A stretch of 44,800 nucleotides of DNA from Pseudomonadota bacterium (lineage in GTDB: Bacteria; Myxococcota_A; UBA796; GCA-2862545): positions 1-44,800 of the forward strand of contig JAGSGY010000042.1 of the NCBI GenBank assembly GCA_023954855.1, given 5' to 3'. Below, one piece after another: positions 2,907-37,269 of the stretch. The translations under genes were made by a program, and so were the position numbers. Positions within the stretch are counted from its first letter, which is position 1, and every line of letters begins with the position of its first letter. The notes beneath the pieces were generated by a model that had not been told where the DNA came from, searched no databases, and saw only the letters and a program-made list of their open reading frames with translations.

Positions 2907-5900
2907 ATGTCGACTTTCGAGCCCATCGCGGTGGTTGGGCAGGCTTGTGTCCTGCCCAACGCGCTGAATCCTGAAGCCCTCTGGGAGCTGGTGCTCTCCG
3001 GCCAGTCGGCTGTGGGGCCTGTGCCTCGCGACCGCTGGGGGGTGGACCCGAGCGCGATTGCGTGCCGGCCCGAGGACGACAGCACTGACAAGACCTGGTC
3101 GGATGCCGGCGGCTACGTCCGTGGCTTCGATCAGATCTTCGATCCCTCCGGATTCAACGGCCTGAGCGCACAGGAAGTGCTCGGGCTCGACCCGCTGTTT
3201 CAGTGGACGTTGCACACCGTGCGCGAGGCCTTGCGCGATGCGGGAGCGGCCGGAAACGACCGCACCGGCCTGGTCATGGGCAATCTGTCCTTTCCGGCGG
3301 CAAAGCACACCGAGCTGGCGCAGTTCGAGTGGCTCTCGGCGCAGCCGCAGTTGCTTGCAGGGCAGGGGGCTCAGCTCGCCGGCATCGAGCGTCCCGACCC
3401 GCGCAACCACTTCCACTCCGGTCTTCCCGCCCATCTTGCGGCGCATGCACTGGGTCTCGGGTCGGCCTTTGCGCTCGACGCGGCCTGTGCGAGCTCGCTG
3501 TACGCGGTGAAGCTTGCCTGCGACAAGCTGCAGGACCGCGAGGCGGACACGATGGTGGCCGGGGCAGTGAACTGCGCCGATGACCTGTTCATCCACGTCG
3601 GGTTCTGCGCCTTGTCTGCGATGAGCAAGACCGGCCAGAGCCGACCATTCCACAGCGGTGCCGACGGCTTGGTTCCCGGAGAGGGCGCCGCCTTCCTCGT
3701 GCTCAAGCGTCTGTCCGACGCGGTTGCTGCCGGGGACACCATCCACGGCGTCATTCGCGGCGTGGGCCTGTCGAATGATGGACGCGCTCGCAACCTGCTG
3801 GCGCCTGCAGAGGCTGGCCAGCAGCGCGCAATGCAGCTTGCTTACGATGTAAGTGGCGTCTCCCCGAGTGAGGTCGGCCTCGTCGAGTGTCATGCGACGG
3901 GTACGCCGGTGGGCGACACCACCGAGCTGAACTCGACCGGCGCGGTGTACGCAGGTCTGAGCGATGTGCCGATTGGCTCGCTCAAGTCGAATCTCGGCCA
4001 CCTCATCACCGCAGCCGGTGCTGCCGGCATGATCAAGGTGATGGCGGCCATGAAGCACGGCGTGCGGCCTCCGACGCTGCACATCGACTCGCCGCTCCCC
4101 GCCGTCGCGGGCTCGCCGTTCCGACTGCTCGAGCGGCCTGAGCCATGGACGCAGCAGGGACCCAAGCGGGCAGGCGTCTCGGCCTTTGGCTTCGGCGGCA
4201 ACAACGCCCACGTGGTCCTCGAAGAGTACGTGCCCGAGACCGCGACCACGGCGTTTGCCGCTCCGTCCGGTCCATTGGCGGTGGTGGCTCTGGGGTCGCG
4301 GGTTGGCGCCGGTGCTTCGGCCAAGGACTTCGTCGACACCGTGGTCGCTGGAAAGGCGACACCGACGTCCGCGACCGAGGTTGGGCTCAACATCAAGGGT
4401 CTGCGCTTTCCGCCGAATGATCTGGCCGATGCGCTGCCCCAACAGATTCAGATCCTCGCGGCCGCTCGTGAGGCGTTGCCGCAGCTCGGCGCGGCGCTGC
4501 CGAATGCCCGCACCGGCGTCTACGTTGGCATGAGCTGCGATGCCGAGATTGCCCGCTATGGTGCGCGCTGGCGTGCTGAGGGCTGGGCGGACTCGTGGGC
4601 ACGTGCCGGAGTCGTACTCGACGGTGAGCAGCGCCAGTCCCTCCGCGATGCGTTCATCCACGGACTTCAGTCGTCGGGCGTGCTCGGAACGATGCCGAAC
4701 ATTCCGGCGAACCGTCTCAACTCGCAGTTCGATGCGGGTGGCCCGAGCTTCACGGTGTCTGCCGAAGAGCTCTCCGGTGTGCGCGCCCTCGAGATTGGCG
4801 CCCGCGCGCTGCGCGCCCATGAGATCGATGCCGCCATCATCGGCGCCGTCGACATGTCGGATGAGCCAGTGCACCGGGCGGCCCTTGCCGCGCTGGACGG
4901 GGACCGCCCCGCTGCCGATGCGGCCATCGTGCTGGTCCTCAAGCGTCAGGCCGATGCCGAGCGCGATGGCGACCACGTGCTAGCCCTGATCAGCGACGAG
5001 GCGTCCGCTGCGCCTTTGCTTCATCTCTCGGCGGGCCAGAGCCCGCTGTCTCCCATGTTGGGCCATGCCCACGCAGCGAGCGGCCTTGTGCACGTCGCTG
5101 CGGCGGTGCTCTCCACGCGGACCGGCCAGGCTAGCTCTGGCATCGATGTCGTCGTGGATGCCCTGTATGGCCAGCGAGGCATCGTGCGGGTTCGTCCTGC
5201 GTCGACCGCCGGCCAACCTCTTCCCGCTTTCCTCACTGAGGACCCCATGTCCGAGCCCAACCTGACCTGGCCTGCCCACGCAGCGCCGGTCGTGCTTCCC
5301 GAGGCCCATCTGATGGCGACTGGACCCCGTTCGCTTACCGCCGAGACCGCCAACCCCGTCGTGGGTGGGCTTCAGCAGATGCCCTCTGCGCCGACGCTTC
5401 CCGCTGTGATGGGAGCGGCCCCGGTCGTCGCCCACACCGCGCGTCCGGCGGCTCCGGTCTACACCGCACCTCCGACGGCTGCGGCACGTCCGGTCGTCGC
5501 AGCAGCGCTTCAGGCACCCGCCGTGGCACCGGTCGCTCCGATGGCTGCAGGCACCGACCCGATGGCGGCGGTCGGCGACTTCCATCGCCGCATGGGCGAG
5601 GCTCACCGCAACTTCCTGACCAAGCAGGCCGAGGTGCACAAACGCTTCCTCGAGATGCGTCAGAACGCGCTCTTCGGCCTGGCTCAGGCCGCGGGCTCGA
5701 TGCCCGCACAGGCCGCTCCCGTGGCAGCCCATGTGCCGGCACTACCACCGGTGGCTGCTCCTGTGGCCTCTGCGCTGCCGATTCCGCCACCGGTCGTTCC
5801 GGTGACGTCGATGCTTCCGAGTGAGGCGGCCCCGCCGGTTCCCGACCGCATGCCTGCGGCGCCAACGCTCGCGAAGCCCGTTGTCCGTCCCAGTCCGAAA

Positions 5901-8900
5901 GTGGCAGCAATCGCCAGGCCGGCCGTCAGGGTCGCTCCGACGCCGGCACCGAAGCCTTCGGCGAAGCCCGCGGCGAAGCCCTCGGCGAAGCCCACGGCGA
6001 AGCCCGCGATCGATCTGCGCGGCGTGGTGCCTTACGTCGAGACGCCCAAGGCCGAGAACCTGCCCGGGCCGAAGCTCGACAAGGACGGCCTGCGCGTGCA
6101 CTCCAGTGGCACGATCAGCGAGATCTTCGGACCCATGTTCGAGCAGCAGGACCAGTACGCTGTGCAGGTCCGCATGCCTGAGCCGCCGCTTCTGCTGGCC
6201 GACCGTCTGCTCGGCATCGATGCGGAGCCCGGCGTGCACGGCACCGGAACGCTGTGGACCCAGACCGATGTCCACGAGGACAGCTGGTGGCTTCACCAGG
6301 GTCACATGCCCGCGGGCATCATGATCGAGTCCGGACAGGCGGACCTGATGCTCATCTCGTGGATGGGTACGGACTTCAAGAACAAGGGCGAGCGCGCCTA
6401 CCGTCTGCTCGGCTGCGAGCTGACCTACCACGCGGCCCCCGACGACAACCCGGCCGAGTACTCCTACGTGCTCCCGAAGCCCGGCGAGACGCTGACCTAC
6501 GACATCCACGTCGACGGTCACGCCAACCAGGGCGACATCCGGATGTTCTTCTTCCACTACGACTGCCGCATCAACGGCCACCCGCGCCTCACGGTGCGCT
6601 CGGGTCAGGCGGGCTTCTTCTCGGAAGAAGAACTCGAGAACTCGGCAGGCGTGCTCTGGACCCCCGAAGAGGGCGAAGTCAAGCCCCTCAACGAGGTCCA
6701 GCTCGACAAGCCTTCTGTAGCCAACGTGCGCAGCAGCCTGTCTAAGGAAGAGCTCATCGCCTTCTCGGAGGGACGCGTCGCCGATTGCTTCGGCGAGGGC
6801 TTCCACCGCATGAACCCGCACACCGAGTCGCCTCGCATCGCCGATGGCCGCTTGCTGTTCCTCGATCGCGTCACCGACATCCAGACCGACGGTGGACCCT
6901 GGAAGCGCGGTTACCTGCGCGCCGAGCAGGACATCGAGCAGGACACCTGGTTCTTCGACGGCCACTTCAAGAACGACCCGTGCATGCCCGGCACGCTGAT
7001 GTTCGACGGCTGCCTGCAGGCCATGGCGGTCTACATGAGCGCACTTGGGTACACCATCGAGAAGGATGGCTGGCGCTTCGAGCCGATTCCCAATGAGCCC
7101 TACCAGATGCGCTGCCGGGGTCAGGTGCTGCCCCACAACAGGAACCTCGTCTACGAGATTTTCGTCGAGGAGGTCATCGAAGGCCCGGTGCCGATGGTCT
7201 ACGCCGACCTGCTCTGCACCATCGACGGTCGCAAGGCCTTCCACTGCCGCCGCATGGGCCTTCGTTGTACGCCGGGCTACCCGCTCGACCGCATGAAGCT
7301 CGAGGCTGGCCCGGGTGCCGACAAGCCGACGGCCGTCGTCGATGGCTTCACCTTCGACTACCGCAGCCTCATCGCCTGTGCGACCGGTCGTCCGTCCGAG
7401 GCCTTTGGCCCGATGTACCAGCCCTTCGACGGAACCCGCACCTGCGCCCGTCTGCCCGGCGAGCCCTACCACTTCATGCATCGCATCGCTGAGGTCGAAG
7501 GCCCCATCGGCGGCATGAAGAAGGGCACCCGCGTGGTGGCCGAGTACGAGGTTCCCGCCGACGTCTGGTACGTGGACGAGAACAGCAACCCGACGATGCC
7601 TTACGCTGTACTCATGGAAGCAGCGCTGCAGCCGTGTGGCTGGCTCGCCTCGTACATTGGCTGCGCGACCACGACCGACAAGGACATCCTGTTCCGCAAC
7701 CTCGACGGCACCGCGACCATGCATCGGGCGGTTCCTCCGGGGGGCGGCACGCTCCGCACCGAGTCGACGCTGACCAGCCTCTCCCAGCAGGGCGGCATGA
7801 TCATCACCGGCTTCGAGGTGAAGTGCTGGCTCGATGGAGACCCGCTCTACGACCTCACCACCGTCTTCGGTTTCTTCCCGCCCGAGGCCTTCGTCAACCA
7901 GGCAGGACTGCCGGTTCCGAAGGGTGAGAAGGGCTGCCTCGACGAGGCCAACGACTTCCTCGTTGACCTGGTTCCCCGTCCCGAGCGCTACTGCGAAGGC
8001 ACGGCTCGCTTGGCGAACCCGATGCTGCTGATGATCGACCGCGTCGACGGCTACTGGCCCGAGGGTGGCGAGCACGGCAAGGGCCGCTTCCGCGCCCAGA
8101 AGGACGTGCGCAGCAAGGAGTGGTTCTTCAAGAGCCACTTCTACAGCGACCCGGTTCAGCCCGGCTCCCTCGGCATCGAGGCGCTTCACCAGCTGCTTCA
8201 GTTCGCGATGCTCGAGCTCGGTCTCGACGAGGGCCTCGAGGCTCCGGAGTTCGAGTCCGTGCTCTACGGCGTCGAGCACGCCTGGAAGTACCGCGGCCAG
8301 GTCGTTCCCGACAACAAGGTCATCTCCTCGGTCATCGACATCGTCGAGACCGGCGAGGACGAGGACGGTCGCTTCGCGATTGCGGACGGTAGCCTCTGGG
8401 TCGACGGCAAGCGCATCTACCAGATCAAGAAGATGGGCATGCGTCTGCGTCCCACGCCGCGTCCCCGCTTGCCGCAAGGCGAGACCGGTGAGCGGTCCTC
8501 CAACTCGGAGGGCGACACAGCCGCAGTTGAGAGGCTCGATCCCGCCGTCGACGGCTGGCTAAACGACCACTGTCCGACCTGGACGGTGCCGGCGCTGCCG
8601 ATGATGTCGATGCTGGACCTGATGGCGGGTGCCGCCGCTCGTGAGACGGGTCGTACCGTCGTGGGTCTGAACGATGTTCAGGTCTGGCGCTGGCTCGATC
8701 TTCCCCATGCTCGCGATATCCGCGTCGACGTCACCGGCGATGGCGACAAGCGCCGCTGCGTACTGCACGCCGAGCGCGACGGAACGTGGGAGATGGTCGC
8801 AGAGGGCAAGGTCATGCTCGGCTCGGGCTACCCCTCAGGTCGTCCCGCGGCGCTCGCGCCCATGGCAGGCGAGACCATGGCCGATCCCTACGCGACTGGC

Positions 8901-10598
8901 ACGTTGTTTCACGGCCCCGACTTCCACCTGCTCGACTCCCTGATCATGAATGGCGAGGGCAGCAGCGCGGTGCTCACGGCGACGCCCAACGGCGTGCCGG
9001 TCGGCACGCTCAACCAGGGCCTACTCGACGCTGCGACCCACGCGATTCCGCATGACCAGCTGTGGCGCTGGTCTCCCGAGATCGACGAGGACATGGTGGC
9101 CTATCCGGCCCGGGTGACGGATTTTGCTCTTTACGGGCGCAAACCGACGTCTGGAAAGGTGCGCTGCGAGGTCCGCTGGGCGGGCTTTGCGGGCAGCAAG
9201 CGCTTCCCGAGCTTCACTGTGCAGCTGATTGGTGCCGAGGGTGTGTGGTGTGCATTCACCCTCATCGAGGCGCTGTTTCCCAAGGGCCCCATCGGTGTGG
9301 CCCGCCCCGCGGATCGCCGTGGCTTCCTGACCGGAAACTACGTGTCGGGCATGCGTTTGTCGCGCTGCGAGGACGGCGTGACCGAGCTGACCCGCGCTGA
9401 AGTCAAGGGCTCGGACTGGCTTCGCGGCACCGTTGATGCGGTCTGGAACCTCTCCACGCCGGGATCGCTGCGCGAGCTCGCAATGAAGGAGCATGTCGCC
9501 GCCCTCACGCAGGCGCATCCCTCCGAAGTCGTCGTTTCTGGCGACTCCGTGGTGTCGCGGACCCAGCCACTTACGGTGTATACGCCGGTGGTGACCGAGA
9601 CCGACGATGGCGTCATGGTCCAAGGGGTGGGGTACCACAGCGACCTCTCCGTCGTGCGTGAGCACTGGACGGCGTTCTACGGCCTCGGCCAGTGGCCCGT
9701 CGAGGATCTGTACTACGGCCTCTGCGAGCGCTTCGTCGGCAAGGTGGTTCTCGCCGACCCCCTGATGCGTGAGCAGCTGCACGGCAAGAGCGTGCTCTAC
9801 TTGGGCAACCATCAGGTCATGGTCGAGTCGCTGCTGTTCTCGATCTTGATGGGCGGCTTGTTCGGCGCCCCGGCGAACACCATTGCCAAGATGGAGCACC
9901 AGACCAGCTGGCTCGGCAAGCTCATCGAGCACTGCTGGACCTGGCCGGGCGCGAAGGACCCGAAGGTCATCACCTTCTTCGACCGCAGTAATCCCCGCGA
10001 CTTGATTCGCATCATTGGGCAGCTGACCGAAGAGATGAAGACCGGCGGCCGCAGCGTCAACGTCCACGTCGAAGGCACGCGCAGCCTCACCGCGCGCAAG
10101 GCGGTCGAGACGATGGCCGGCGCATTCGTCGACATGGCGATCAAGGCGAACGTGCCGATTGTTCCCGTACACTTCTCGGGTGCCATTCCGGTCGAGGAAC
10201 TCGAGGAACGTCTCGATTTCCCGGTCGGTCACGGTCGGCAGGACATCTACCTCGGCGTGCCGATCTGGCCCGAGCAGCTCTCCGCACTCGGCCTACGCGA
10301 GCGGCGTGCATTCGTGAAGGACGCCATCAACGCCACCGGCGACTGGTCCACCGAGCAGCCCAACCCCGGCGACCCGGAGTTCGAGGCGGCGGTGCGCGAG
10401 TGGATGGCCAAGACCGGAGCCTCGGAGGCCCACGCGGCGATGTGGTGCACGCTCGAGCGTCTCGATGCTCCCGGCGAAGCTATTCAGCGGCTGGTCGACG
10501 GCGGACAGACGGGCTCGCTCGAGCTTGGCGATGGTCCCGAAGACGCGTGGCTGCGCGTTCTCGCCGGCTGGGTCTACGGGCCGAACTGGCAGGGCTAG
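2907..10598 (+). CDS. pfaC: PUFA synthase subunit PfaC-like, KS-CLF-(psiDH-DH)x2-DH-acyltransferase
   Basis: This giant multidomain enzyme condenses and dehydrates the growing chain in PUFA synthesis. Residues 1-440 are a ketosynthase with catalytic Cys194 (AACASS), His329 and His365. Residues 445-760 are a chain-length factor in which the cysteine position is Glu621. An Ala/Pro-rich linker follows, containing an amphipathic helix near 885-930 and five KPxA repeats. Four FabA-type hotdog folds come next. The second and fourth keep active-site histidines (His1353 in GHFKNDPCMPG, His1744 in SHFYSDPVQPG); the first and third look like pseudo-domains. A PKS-type dehydratase-like domain (His1888, Asp2041) is degenerate, with Trp at the usual Gly. 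The C-terminus is a PlsC/AGPAT acyltransferase with NHQVMVE (Asn2301-His2302) and EGTR (2389-2392), where HX4E replaces the usual HX4D. No acyltransferase GHSxG motif was seen. PUFA synthases with a fused AGPAT are known from terrestrial myxobacteria (named pfa3). Delivery of the product to glycerolipid is inferred. Confidence 0.93.
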   Translation: MSTFEPIAVVGQACVLPNALNPEALWELVLSGQSAVGPVPRDRWGVDPSAIACRPEDDSTDKTWSDAGGYVRGFDQIFDPSGFNGLSAQEVLGLDPLFQWTLHTVREALRDAGAAGNDRTGLVMGNLSFPAAKHTELAQFEWLSAQPQLLAGQGAQLAGIERPDPRNHFHSGLPAHLAAHALGLGSAFALDAACASSLYAVKLACDKLQDREADTMVAGAVNCADDLFIHVGFCALSAMSKTGQSRPFHSGADGLVPGEGAAFLVLKRLSDAVAAGDTIHGVIRGVGLSNDGRARNLLAPAEAGQQRAMQLAYDVSGVSPSEVGLVECHATGTPVGDTTELNSTGAVYAGLSDVPIGSLKSNLGHLITAAGAAGMIKVMAAMKHGVRPPTLHIDSPLPAVAGSPFRLLERPEPWTQQGPKRAGVSAFGFGGNNAHVVLEEYVPETATTAFAAPSGPLAVVALGSRVGAGASAKDFVDTVVAGKATPTSATEVGLNIKGLRFPPNDLADALPQQIQILAAAREALPQLGAALPNARTGVYVGMSCDAEIARYGARWRAEGWADSWARAGVVLDGEQRQSLRDAFIHGLQSSGVLGTMPNIPANRLNSQFDAGGPSFTVSAEELSGVRALEIGARALRAHEIDAAIIGAVDMSDEPVHRAALAALDGDRPAADAAIVLVLKRQADAERDGDHVLALISDEASAAPLLHLSAGQSPLSPMLGHAHAASGLVHVAAAVLSTRTGQASSGIDVVVDALYGQRGIVRVRPASTAGQPLPAFLTEDPMSEPNLTWPAHAAPVVLPEAHLMATGPRSLTAETANPVVGGLQQMPSAPTLPAVMGAAPVVAHTARPAAPVYTAPPTAAARPVVAAALQAPAVAPVAPMAAGTDPMAAVGDFHRRMGEAHRNFLTKQAEVHKRFLEMRQNALFGLAQAAGSMPAQAAPVAAHVPALPPVAAPVASALPIPPPVVPVTSMLPSEAAPPVPDRMPAAPTLAKPVVRPSPKVAAIARPAVRVAPTPAPKPSAKPAAKPSAKPTAKPAIDLRGVVPYVETPKAENLPGPKLDKDGLRVHSSGTISEIFGPMFEQQDQYAVQVRMPEPPLLLADRLLGIDAEPGVHGTGTLWTQTDVHEDSWWLHQGHMPAGIMIESGQADLMLISWMGTDFKNKGERAYRLLGCELTYHAAPDDNPAEYSYVLPKPGETLTYDIHVDGHANQGDIRMFFFHYDCRINGHPRLTVRSGQAGFFSEEELENSAGVLWTPEEGEVKPLNEVQLDKPSVANVRSSLSKEELIAFSEGRVADCFGEGFHRMNPHTESPRIADGRLLFLDRVTDIQTDGGPWKRGYLRAEQDIEQDTWFFDGHFKNDPCMPGTLMFDGCLQAMAVYMSALGYTIEKDGWRFEPIPNEPYQMRCRGQVLPHNRNLVYEIFVEEVIEGPVPMVYADLLCTIDGRKAFHCRRMGLRCTPGYPLDRMKLEAGPGADKPTAVVDGFTFDYRSLIACATGRPSEAFGPMYQPFDGTRTCARLPGEPYHFMHRIAEVEGPIGGMKKGTRVVAEYEVPADVWYVDENSNPTMPYAVLMEAALQPCGWLASYIGCATTTDKDILFRNLDGTATMHRAVPPGGGTLRTESTLTSLSQQGGMIITGFEVKCWLDGDPLYDLTTVFGFFPPEAFVNQAGLPVPKGEKGCLDEANDFLVDLVPRPERYCEGTARLANPMLLMIDRVDGYWPEGGEHGKGRFRAQKDVRSKEWFFKSHFYSDPVQPGSLGIEALHQLLQFAMLELGLDEGLEAPEFESVLYGVEHAWKYRGQVVPDNKVISSVIDIVETGEDEDGRFAIADGSLWVDGKRIYQIKKMGMRLRPTPRPRLPQGETGERSSNSEGDTAAVERLDPAVDGWLNDHCPTWTVPALPMMSMLDLMAGAAARETGRTVVGLNDVQVWRWLDLPHARDIRVDVTGDGDKRRCVLHAERDGTWEMVAEGKVMLGSGYPSGRPAALAPMAGETMADPYATGTLFHGPDFHLLDSLIMNGEGSSAVLTATPNGVPVGTLNQGLLDAATHAIPHDQLWRWSPEIDEDMVAYPARVTDFALYGRKPTSGKVRCEVRWAGFAGSKRFPSFTVQLIGAEGVWCAFTLIEALFPKGPIGVARPADRRGFLTGNYVSGMRLSRCEDGVTELTRAEVKGSDWLRGTVDAVWNLSTPGSLRELAMKEHVAALTQAHPSEVVVSGDSVVSRTQPLTVYTPVVTETDDGVMVQGVGYHSDLSVVREHWTAFYGLGQWPVEDLYYGLCERFVGKVVLADPLMREQLHGKSVLYLGNHQVMVESLLFSILMGGLFGAPANTIAKMEHQTSWLGKLIEHCWTWPGAKDPKVITFFDRSNPRDLIRIIGQLTEEMKTGGRSVNVHVEGTRSLTARKAVETMAGAFVDMAIKANVPIVPVHFSGAIPVEELEERLDFPVGHGRQDIYLGVPIWPEQLSALGLRERRAFVKDAINATGDWSTEQPNPGDPEFEAAVREWMAKTGASEAHAAMWCTLERLDAPGEAIQRLVDGGQTGSLELGDGPEDAWLRVLAGWVYGPNWQG
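5951..6010 (+). repeat. Five 12-bp tandem units coding a Lys-Pro-Xaa-Ala linker
   Basis: Five imperfect copies of a 12-base unit (GAAGCC followed by a variable YNCGGC-like half) lie in frame within the pfaC linker. They encode a repeated K-P-(S/A/T)-A peptide between the chain-length factor and the first hotdog domain. The repeat is likely a flexible, positively charged spacer and may vary in copy number between strains. Confidence 0.85.
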
Positions 10599-10604
10599 AG
10601 CGGT

Positions 10605-11084
10605 ATGAGCGAGCCCCGAGACCGACTTCTCGCCTTGCTCACCGCGTCTGGCCGTCCCTTTGAGGTGGTCGAGCACGGACATGCATCGACCTCGGAGGAG
10701 GTTGCAGCGCAGCGGGGAACGCCTGTCGAGATGGGTGGCAAGTCGCTGGTCTTCAAGCTGCAGACAGGCTTTGCTCTGTTCGTACTCTCGGGCGCGCGTC
10801 GGACCGACAACCGGCTGCTTCGCAAGCATCTCGGTATTCAGCGGCTGCGCTTTGCGCGGCTCGAGGAACTGACGGCCCTCACGAGCCTTACGCCAGGCTG
10901 CGTTCCGCCGTTTGGCCGGCCGATCTTTGATCTTCCGCTGTATGTCGATGCCGCGACGGTTGCCCAAGACGAGATTGCGTTCAGCCTCGCCAGTCACACG
11001 TCTTCCGTGCGTATGAGGACGGCGGACTGGCTCGCGATCGCGGATCCGACCGACATCTACACATTTGCGGTAGATCGCGACTAG
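10605..11084 (+). CDS. YbaK/ProX-type aminoacyl-tRNA deacylase
   Basis: The 159-residue protein matches the length and pattern of the YbaK/EbsC and ProX editing family, which hydrolyse mischarged tRNAs (for example Cys-tRNAPro or Ala-tRNAPro) in the cytoplasm. Seen are the conserved GGKSLVFK stretch, with the family lysine, near residue 45, the FVLSGARR strand near 60, and the late glycine-proline loop (GCVPPFGRP). Start ATG 10605 lies 6 bases after the pfaC stop, so the gene is probably transcribed with the PUFA operon, although no functional link is evident. Substrate preference cannot be read from sequence. Confidence 0.82.
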   Translation: MSEPRDRLLALLTASGRPFEVVEHGHASTSEEVAAQRGTPVEMGGKSLVFKLQTGFALFVLSGARRTDNRLLRKHLGIQRLRFARLEELTALTSLTPGCVPPFGRPIFDLPLYVDAATVAQDEIAFSLASHTSSVRMRTADWLAIADPTDIYTFAVDRD

Positions 11085-35427: not shown

Positions 35428-36054
<627 letters not shown>

Positions 36055-36211
36055 TTAGGGTCCTTGTGAACGTACAGGATGAGCTACCCCATGGTGGATG
36101 TCAACGCTGCGAACCCGTGCAGGTCCGGACCTGCGGGCGATCGCTGCCGTGGTGCCCGTGAGCGACTGCGGCACGTCGATCCACGCTATGCTGGGCGGCA
36201 GAGGAGATGCT

Positions 36212-36511
36212 GTGATTGACTGGCCTGCCATCTTTGCGAGAGACGTCGCCCCGTCGTTGGCGAACTTCCAAGCACCGATTCCCACCCCCGTCCTGGGCGG
36301 AGCCGGTGGCGCAGTACTCATTGGGTTGGCAATGCTCGGGATGCTGCGCTTTCCGACCAACCTGGCTGGACTGGTGCCCATCGCGATGGTGATCTTTGGC
36401 GGCGTGATGGTGCTGCAGGGCAGCGATGCGGCCGCTACCGGTGACACCCTTGTTCGCGAGGGCCGCCTGGTGGCCAAGGACACCCGCGTGACGTCCGAGA
36501 AGAACTCATAG
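36212..36511 (+). CDS. Membrane protein, N-terminal part ended by an in-frame amber codon
   Basis: From GTG 36212 (GAGGAG about five bases upstream, TATGCT at 36187-36192) the frame encodes 99 residues: a short N-terminus, two hydrophobic segments (about 30-48 and 52-70) and a charged tail ending TSEKNS before TAG 36509-36511. The same frame then stays open with clear coding bias for another 78 codons. A two-span anchor followed by a non-cytoplasmic domain is a sensible whole protein. The amber codon may be a mutation, a base error or a readthrough site. No family recognised. Confidence 0.65.
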   Translation: MIDWPAIFARDVAPSLANFQAPIPTPVLGGAGGAVLIGLAMLGMLRFPTNLAGLVPIAMVIFGGVMVLQGSDAAATGDTLVREGRLVAKDTRVTSEKNS

Positions 36512-36748
36512 GGCTACAGCCGCGAGGAGACGCTCTACGTCCTGCAGGTCGATGTCGCCCGTACGGGCGTACTCACGGCAGATGGCGTGACGCTCAGCGA
36601 GGCGAACGCGGGCTCGTGGGAGGCTCTCGTCTCTGAGGAGCAGTACGGCGGCCTCACCGAGGGACAGCAGTTGCTCACGATCAGTCTGCCGACGGGACCT
36701 GAAGGCGTCTTCGCCACCGTGCAGGAAGACGGTGCGGTGGTGAAGTAG
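36512..36748 (+). pseudogene. In-frame continuation after the amber codon (78 residues)
   Basis: Directly after TAG 36509-36511 the same frame reads GYSREETLYVLQVDVAR and on to AVVK, stopping at TAG 36746-36748. Third codon positions are almost all G or C and the residues form regular beta-type strands, as in real coding sequence. No start codon with a ribosome site is at the beginning; GTG 36580 is the first internal candidate. It is best read as the C-terminal domain of the gene at 36212-36511. Confidence 0.6.
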
Positions 36749-36798: not shown

Positions 36799-37269
36799 AT
36801 GTTCCGCGCGCTGGTTCTGTTCTCACTGCTCGCCTGCGGGACTCCACAGCCGACCGAGCCGACGCCGATTCCCGAGACGGAGTTCGCTGAAGCATTGTCC
36901 GTCGATCTCTCGGCGATGACGCGCTCTGAGACGGGTCTCTACATCCAGGTGCTCGAGGCGGGCAGCGGTGACCCATCCGTCTCGGGCGACGCCCTGGGCA
37001 TCGAGTACACGGTGTGGCGCCCGGATGGAACGCAGCTCGACGCCAATCGACCGGGGGCTCCGCTCAAGATGGTCCTCGGAGAGTCCAAGCTGATCGCGGG
37101 ATGGATCGAGGGCGTGACGGGCATGCGCCTGGGCGAGAAACGCAAGCTGGTTCTGCCGTACGACCTGGCCTACGGCGAGGAGGGGCGGCCGCCGCGGGTG
37201 CCACCGTTCTCAACCCTCATCTTTGAGGTCAAGCTGGCGACACACACGGCCGGAGAGGTGTCCGAGTAG
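36799..37269 (+). CDS. FKBP-type peptidyl-prolyl isomerase lipoprotein
   Basis: The 156-residue protein has a lipobox (FSLLAC, Cys13), a Thr/Pro/Glu linker, and an FKBP domain (about 45-150): GLYIQVLEAGSG, GIEYTVWRPDGTQLDAN, MVLGESKLIAGWIEGVTGMRLGEKRKLVLPYDLAYGEEG, then PPFSTLIFEVKL. These are the family's strands and active-site loop with Ile-Ala-Gly-Trp and Tyr. It probably helps fold periplasmic or outer membrane proteins. ATG 36799 follows GGAGG. The domain is complete. Confidence 0.92.
   Translation: MFRALVLFSLLACGTPQPTEPTPIPETEFAEALSVDLSAMTRSETGLYIQVLEAGSGDPSVSGDALGIEYTVWRPDGTQLDANRPGAPLKMVLGESKLIAGWIEGVTGMRLGEKRKLVLPYDLAYGEEGRPPRVPPFSTLIFEVKLATHTAGEVSE

Follow-up and report, generated by a model that had tools for sequence, protein, structure and literature searches.

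An in-frame amber codon in a small membrane-protein gene: probably a recent nonsense mutation or a base error

The window analysed here, a stretch of 44,800 nucleotides, constitutes one contig of a 6.1 Mb draft genome (178 contigs, 97% complete). It contains a reading frame on the forward strand that poses a simple question: is the amber codon in its middle a genuine end of translation, a codon that some ribosomes read as sense, or an accident of mutation or assembly? The frame is opened by GTG at 36212-36214 and runs for 99 codons to a TAG at 36509-36511, which occupies codon 100. Beyond this TAG the same frame continues for 78 further sense codons and is closed by a second TAG at 36746-36748. 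The initial annotation regarded the two parts as one divided membrane protein and offered three explanations, namely a recent nonsense mutation, a base error or regulated readthrough. The features of the locus are listed in Table 1.

Table 1. Features of the interrupted membrane-protein gene and its downstream neighbour (positions in the window)
Feature	Position	Strand	Description
RBS-like AGAGGAG upstream of the GTG at 36212	36200..36206	+	read from sequence
Pre-TAG part	36212..36508	+	99 codons, opened by GTG; predicted to form an N-terminal helix, two membrane helices and the soluble domain's first beta strand
In-frame TAG, codon 100	36509..36511	+	arginine codon at the aligned position in both homologues, then invariant glycine
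Post-TAG part	36512..36748	+	78 codons closed by TAG; the other strands of the predicted beta-barrel domain; conserved in each of the two homologues
Next gene downstream, FKBP-type peptidyl-prolyl isomerase	36799..37269	+	lipoprotein-like N terminus

In a three-way alignment the GTG at 36212 is matched by the ATG of a homologue from the same genus. The isomerase gene begins 50 bases past the second TAG, no terminator-like site was found when the interval between 36748 and 36799 was inspected, and the two genes are possibly co-transcribed. On the other side, a perfect 16-base palindrome, GCAGGTCCGGACCTGC, lies at 36119-36134 amid the divergent gene starts at 36054 (-) and 36212 (+). It is a possible operator; an exact second copy is absent from the window. 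The product of the divergent gene (35428-36054, -) is a likely lipoprotein whose N terminus is followed by a long Asp/Thr/Ala repeat, and the underlying DNA repeat is near-regular.

Both parts of the frame look like coding sequence. Codon-usage log-odds in the gene frame were +0.31 bits per codon up to the TAG and +0.45 beyond it, and the other two forward frames gave values of -0.55 to -0.88. A frameshift or an overlapping gene was rejected on the negative codon bias of these other frames, and the frame contains no break other than the TAG at 36509-36511. The mere length of the open run past the stop was not counted as evidence. The window has a G+C content of 66%, and at least 78 open codons follow the stop in 12 of its 33 genes, the membrane-protein gene included. 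Because runs of this kind are so common in GC-rich sequence, 78 open codons alone are weak evidence, and composition by itself would not prove that the frame is continuous.

The continuity of the gene was established by its relatives. Only two full-length homologues were found. One, from the same genus, turned up among related genomes (G001:C95:12452-12979; SBGP01000065.1, Deltaproteobacteria MAG M1803); it encodes 176 residues in one frame and is 32% identical across nearly the whole length. The other, likewise uninterrupted, came from the phylum-wide sample (G220, a member of another family of the phylum) and is 28% identical. Altogether the gene is present in 3 of 377 sampled phylum genomes. 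Weak matches in further genomes (E above 1e-4) were not used; their coverage was partial and most lay within unrelated long frames. Viral and plasmid relatives of the protein were not found, and the genome itself holds no second copy of the gene. A profile built from only the two homologues was searched against the 918 six-frame pieces of the window with at least 20 residues. It matched the two sides of the TAG separately, with E 6.4e-17 for the piece in front and E 3.7e-8 for the piece behind; the next best piece reached E 0.09 and nothing else scored below that. In pairwise comparison the post-TAG stretch matched a homologue with E 1e-7. Since the homologues match both sides of the TAG, the association of the two parts goes beyond chance, and sequence comparison identifies them as one gene of about 178 codons. 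The view that coding bias and frame run unbroken across the stop was thus borne out, with exact coordinates, by the log-odds and by homology on both sides.

Both homologues run uninterrupted across the position of the stop, and in the three-way alignment both carry arginine there, followed by a glycine that is invariant in all three proteins. The TAG at codon 100 is therefore confined to the window copy, and none of the genomes searched shares it. In the part past the stop, the identity of the window copy to the two homologues is 30% and 26%, and the homologues share 28% with each other there, so there is no excess divergence in this part. It has to be borne in mind that these comparisons rest on homologues of only 28-32% identity. 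The converse picture, in which homologues end at the stop and the downstream part is unconserved, would have spoken against a divided gene, and the opposite was found.

These homologues also bear on the idea of two separate genes, the second starting past the TAG. An in-frame GTG at 36587 could serve as its start. However, no convincing ribosome-binding site precedes this GTG, a start there would omit the conserved strand 103-122, and the homologues are single frames, so that two genes are very improbable. Translational restart after the stop was also considered and rejected, as the candidates were weak only.

What kind of protein is interrupted? Hydropathy plots of the window protein and its same-genus homologue showed two peaks, in 19-residue windows that begin near residues 27 and 50. 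AlphaFold, run on the three sequences, gave a model with a pLDDT that averages 66 overall and lies at about 72-83 over most of the domain; it contained helices at 4-19, 25-44 and 55-72 and strands at 79-97, 103-122, 125-129, 134-140, 153-158 and 165-170. The helices 25-44 and 55-72, although predicted with low confidence, agree with the two hydropathy peaks, and for these two proteins the description as a two-span membrane protein holds. Taken together, the predictions suggest a helical hairpin followed by a C-terminal small beta-barrel domain that may resemble DUF2500 in fold. The best structural match of the predicted soluble domain was 3rd4 (PROPEN_03304), which aligned through 3rd4_B over 82 residues (Z 9.0, rmsd 2.6). 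The DUF2500 (PF10694) structure 3q6c aligned through 3q6c_I over 71 residues (Z 7.8, rmsd 2.6). Each of these two structures is a small beta domain. The window protein differs from them in that identity is 8-17%, a Pfam match is absent and two predicted membrane helices precede the domain. DUF2500 was not listed, even at E 10, when the read-through protein and its same-genus homologue were scanned with Pfam, and searches of Pfam, NCBIfam and PDB sequences gave no family for the membrane protein. Moreover, in this mid-confidence model unrelated OB-fold proteins reached Z 6.5-8, against 7.8-9.0 for 3q6c and 3rd4. Because they score so closely behind, we claim no more than a general resemblance to small beta-barrels, and the protein is best described as a probable small beta domain anchored in the membrane, perhaps of DUF2500 type.

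In the AlphaFold model the two longest strands are the first two of the barrel and codon 100 is placed in the turn that joins them, so a truncated product would keep one strand of the domain. It might be thought that such a product, 99 residues long, is itself functional and selected, the stop being genuine. Both membrane helices precede the stop, and the membrane region is the best conserved part (41% identity with the same-genus homologue, compared with 30% after the stop). Nevertheless, not one homologue ends at this stop, a single strand of the barrel domain would be left and the downstream part is undecayed. We regard a functional short form as improbable.

The remaining possibilities depend on how TAG is decoded in this organism. 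The genome encodes RF1, with a score of 509 bits where the cut-off is 423. Among the stop codons TAG is used most often: it closes 19 of the 33 genes in the window and 31 of 62 in a further 96 kb from other loci of this genome, the two sets in which stop usage was counted. It leads even though the window has 66% G+C, where TGA would be expected foremost. Among 48 tRNA matches (ARAGORN; genome 97% complete) there was none with a CUA anticodon. The best match to PylS reached 22.9 bits where the cut-off is 178, so none passed, and similar sub-threshold matches occur in most control genomes. The suppressor machinery, a CUA tRNA together with a matching synthetase, is absent from the assembly. The 56 ABC transporter domains examined in the genome are free of in-frame stops. 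That TAG has been reassigned to an amino acid throughout the genome, for which the one in-frame TAG of the membrane-protein gene is the sole indication, can hardly be entertained in the face of RF1, the use of TAG as main stop, the lack of a CUA tRNA and the stop-free ABC domains. Amber recoding was rejected on the same grounds, together with the result for PylS.

Two observations made in the course of this survey may be recorded. In the window region 2907-11084 (+), a 2563-codon gene is closed by TAG at 10596-10598, and two codons further on, at 10605, the next gene opens in the same frame. Elsewhere in the genome, contig C130 carries at 4712-5201 (L048 413-902) a tight array of five tRNAs (Asn, Met, Pro, Lys, His), several of them with far lower scores than the rest of the genome's tRNAs. 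The array possibly belongs to a mobile element or phage, or consists of decaying copies.

Regulated or otherwise functional readthrough would require a near-cognate tRNA to decode the TAG in some ribosomes, yielding the short hairpin alongside the full-length protein. The downstream codons are conserved and undecayed, the TAG sits in the turn of a predicted beta hairpin, a place where one extra residue would probably be tolerated, and purifying selection can retain in-frame stops, according to one study (PMC7918605). That study keeps readthrough in consideration, but there is no specific support for it in the window gene. Programmed readthrough would be recognised by a stop conserved in relatives and by a stimulating RNA structure, and neither was found. 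The codon-100 TAG occurs in no other genome searched, RNA structure in the 151 nt around and after it was no better than in shuffled sequences (z -0.12), and no Rfam match was found nearby. With RF1 present, no CUA tRNA or PylS, and TAG serving as the commonest terminator, readthrough is unlikely, and its regulated form as proposed in the initial annotation found no support. A related notion is that the TAG is kept as a switch of dose or form, inefficient near-cognate reading supplying a little full-length protein beside the short membrane hairpin; this too we consider improbable.

As nothing enabling readthrough was found, an ordinary broken copy or a base error is most likely. The stop in this single gene is very probably either a nonsense mutation, recent and probably at strain level, in an accessory gene, or a consensus error in the draft assembly. 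The amber codon would then be premature, and translation would most likely end there through RF1. The resulting 99 residues would comprise both membrane helices and a single barrel strand, and the domain should not fold. The stop might have arisen by a mutation recent enough to leave the rest of the frame undecayed, or it might reflect an error or a minority base in the draft consensus. The single-gene structure, the intact relatives with a sense codon, the RF1 gene, the lack of an amber-suppressing tRNA in the assembly and the undecayed downstream part are shown; termination at 36509-36511, loss of function and recency are inferred. An undecayed downstream part would, however, also be expected under low-level functional readthrough. 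Since so few genomes of the phylum carry the gene (3 of 377), losing it should be tolerated and cost little. Taken jointly, the two simpler explanations first put forward, recent nonsense mutation and base error, fit all tests.

For annotation this means that both fragments should be treated as one gene and marked as interrupted rather than listed as a 99-residue protein. The comparison also defines a small, sporadic and unnamed membrane-protein family in three genomes. If a full-length product were shown, the gene would bear on the tolerance of bacteria for in-frame stops; otherwise its value lies mostly in annotation.

With pyrrolysine (UAG) decoding the locus shares an in-frame UAG inside a conserved frame, but it differs in that PylS above the cut-off and a CUA tRNA are both absent. 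A closer parallel may be sought in bacterial genes with single in-frame nonsense codons. According to Belinky et al. 2021 (PMC7918605), in-frame stops within bacterial genes are for the most part short-lived and last only on the time scale of population polymorphism. Although the interrupted copy described here, unlike those genes, is known from one genome, it has in common with them one stop, an otherwise intact conserved frame and normal codon usage on both sides.
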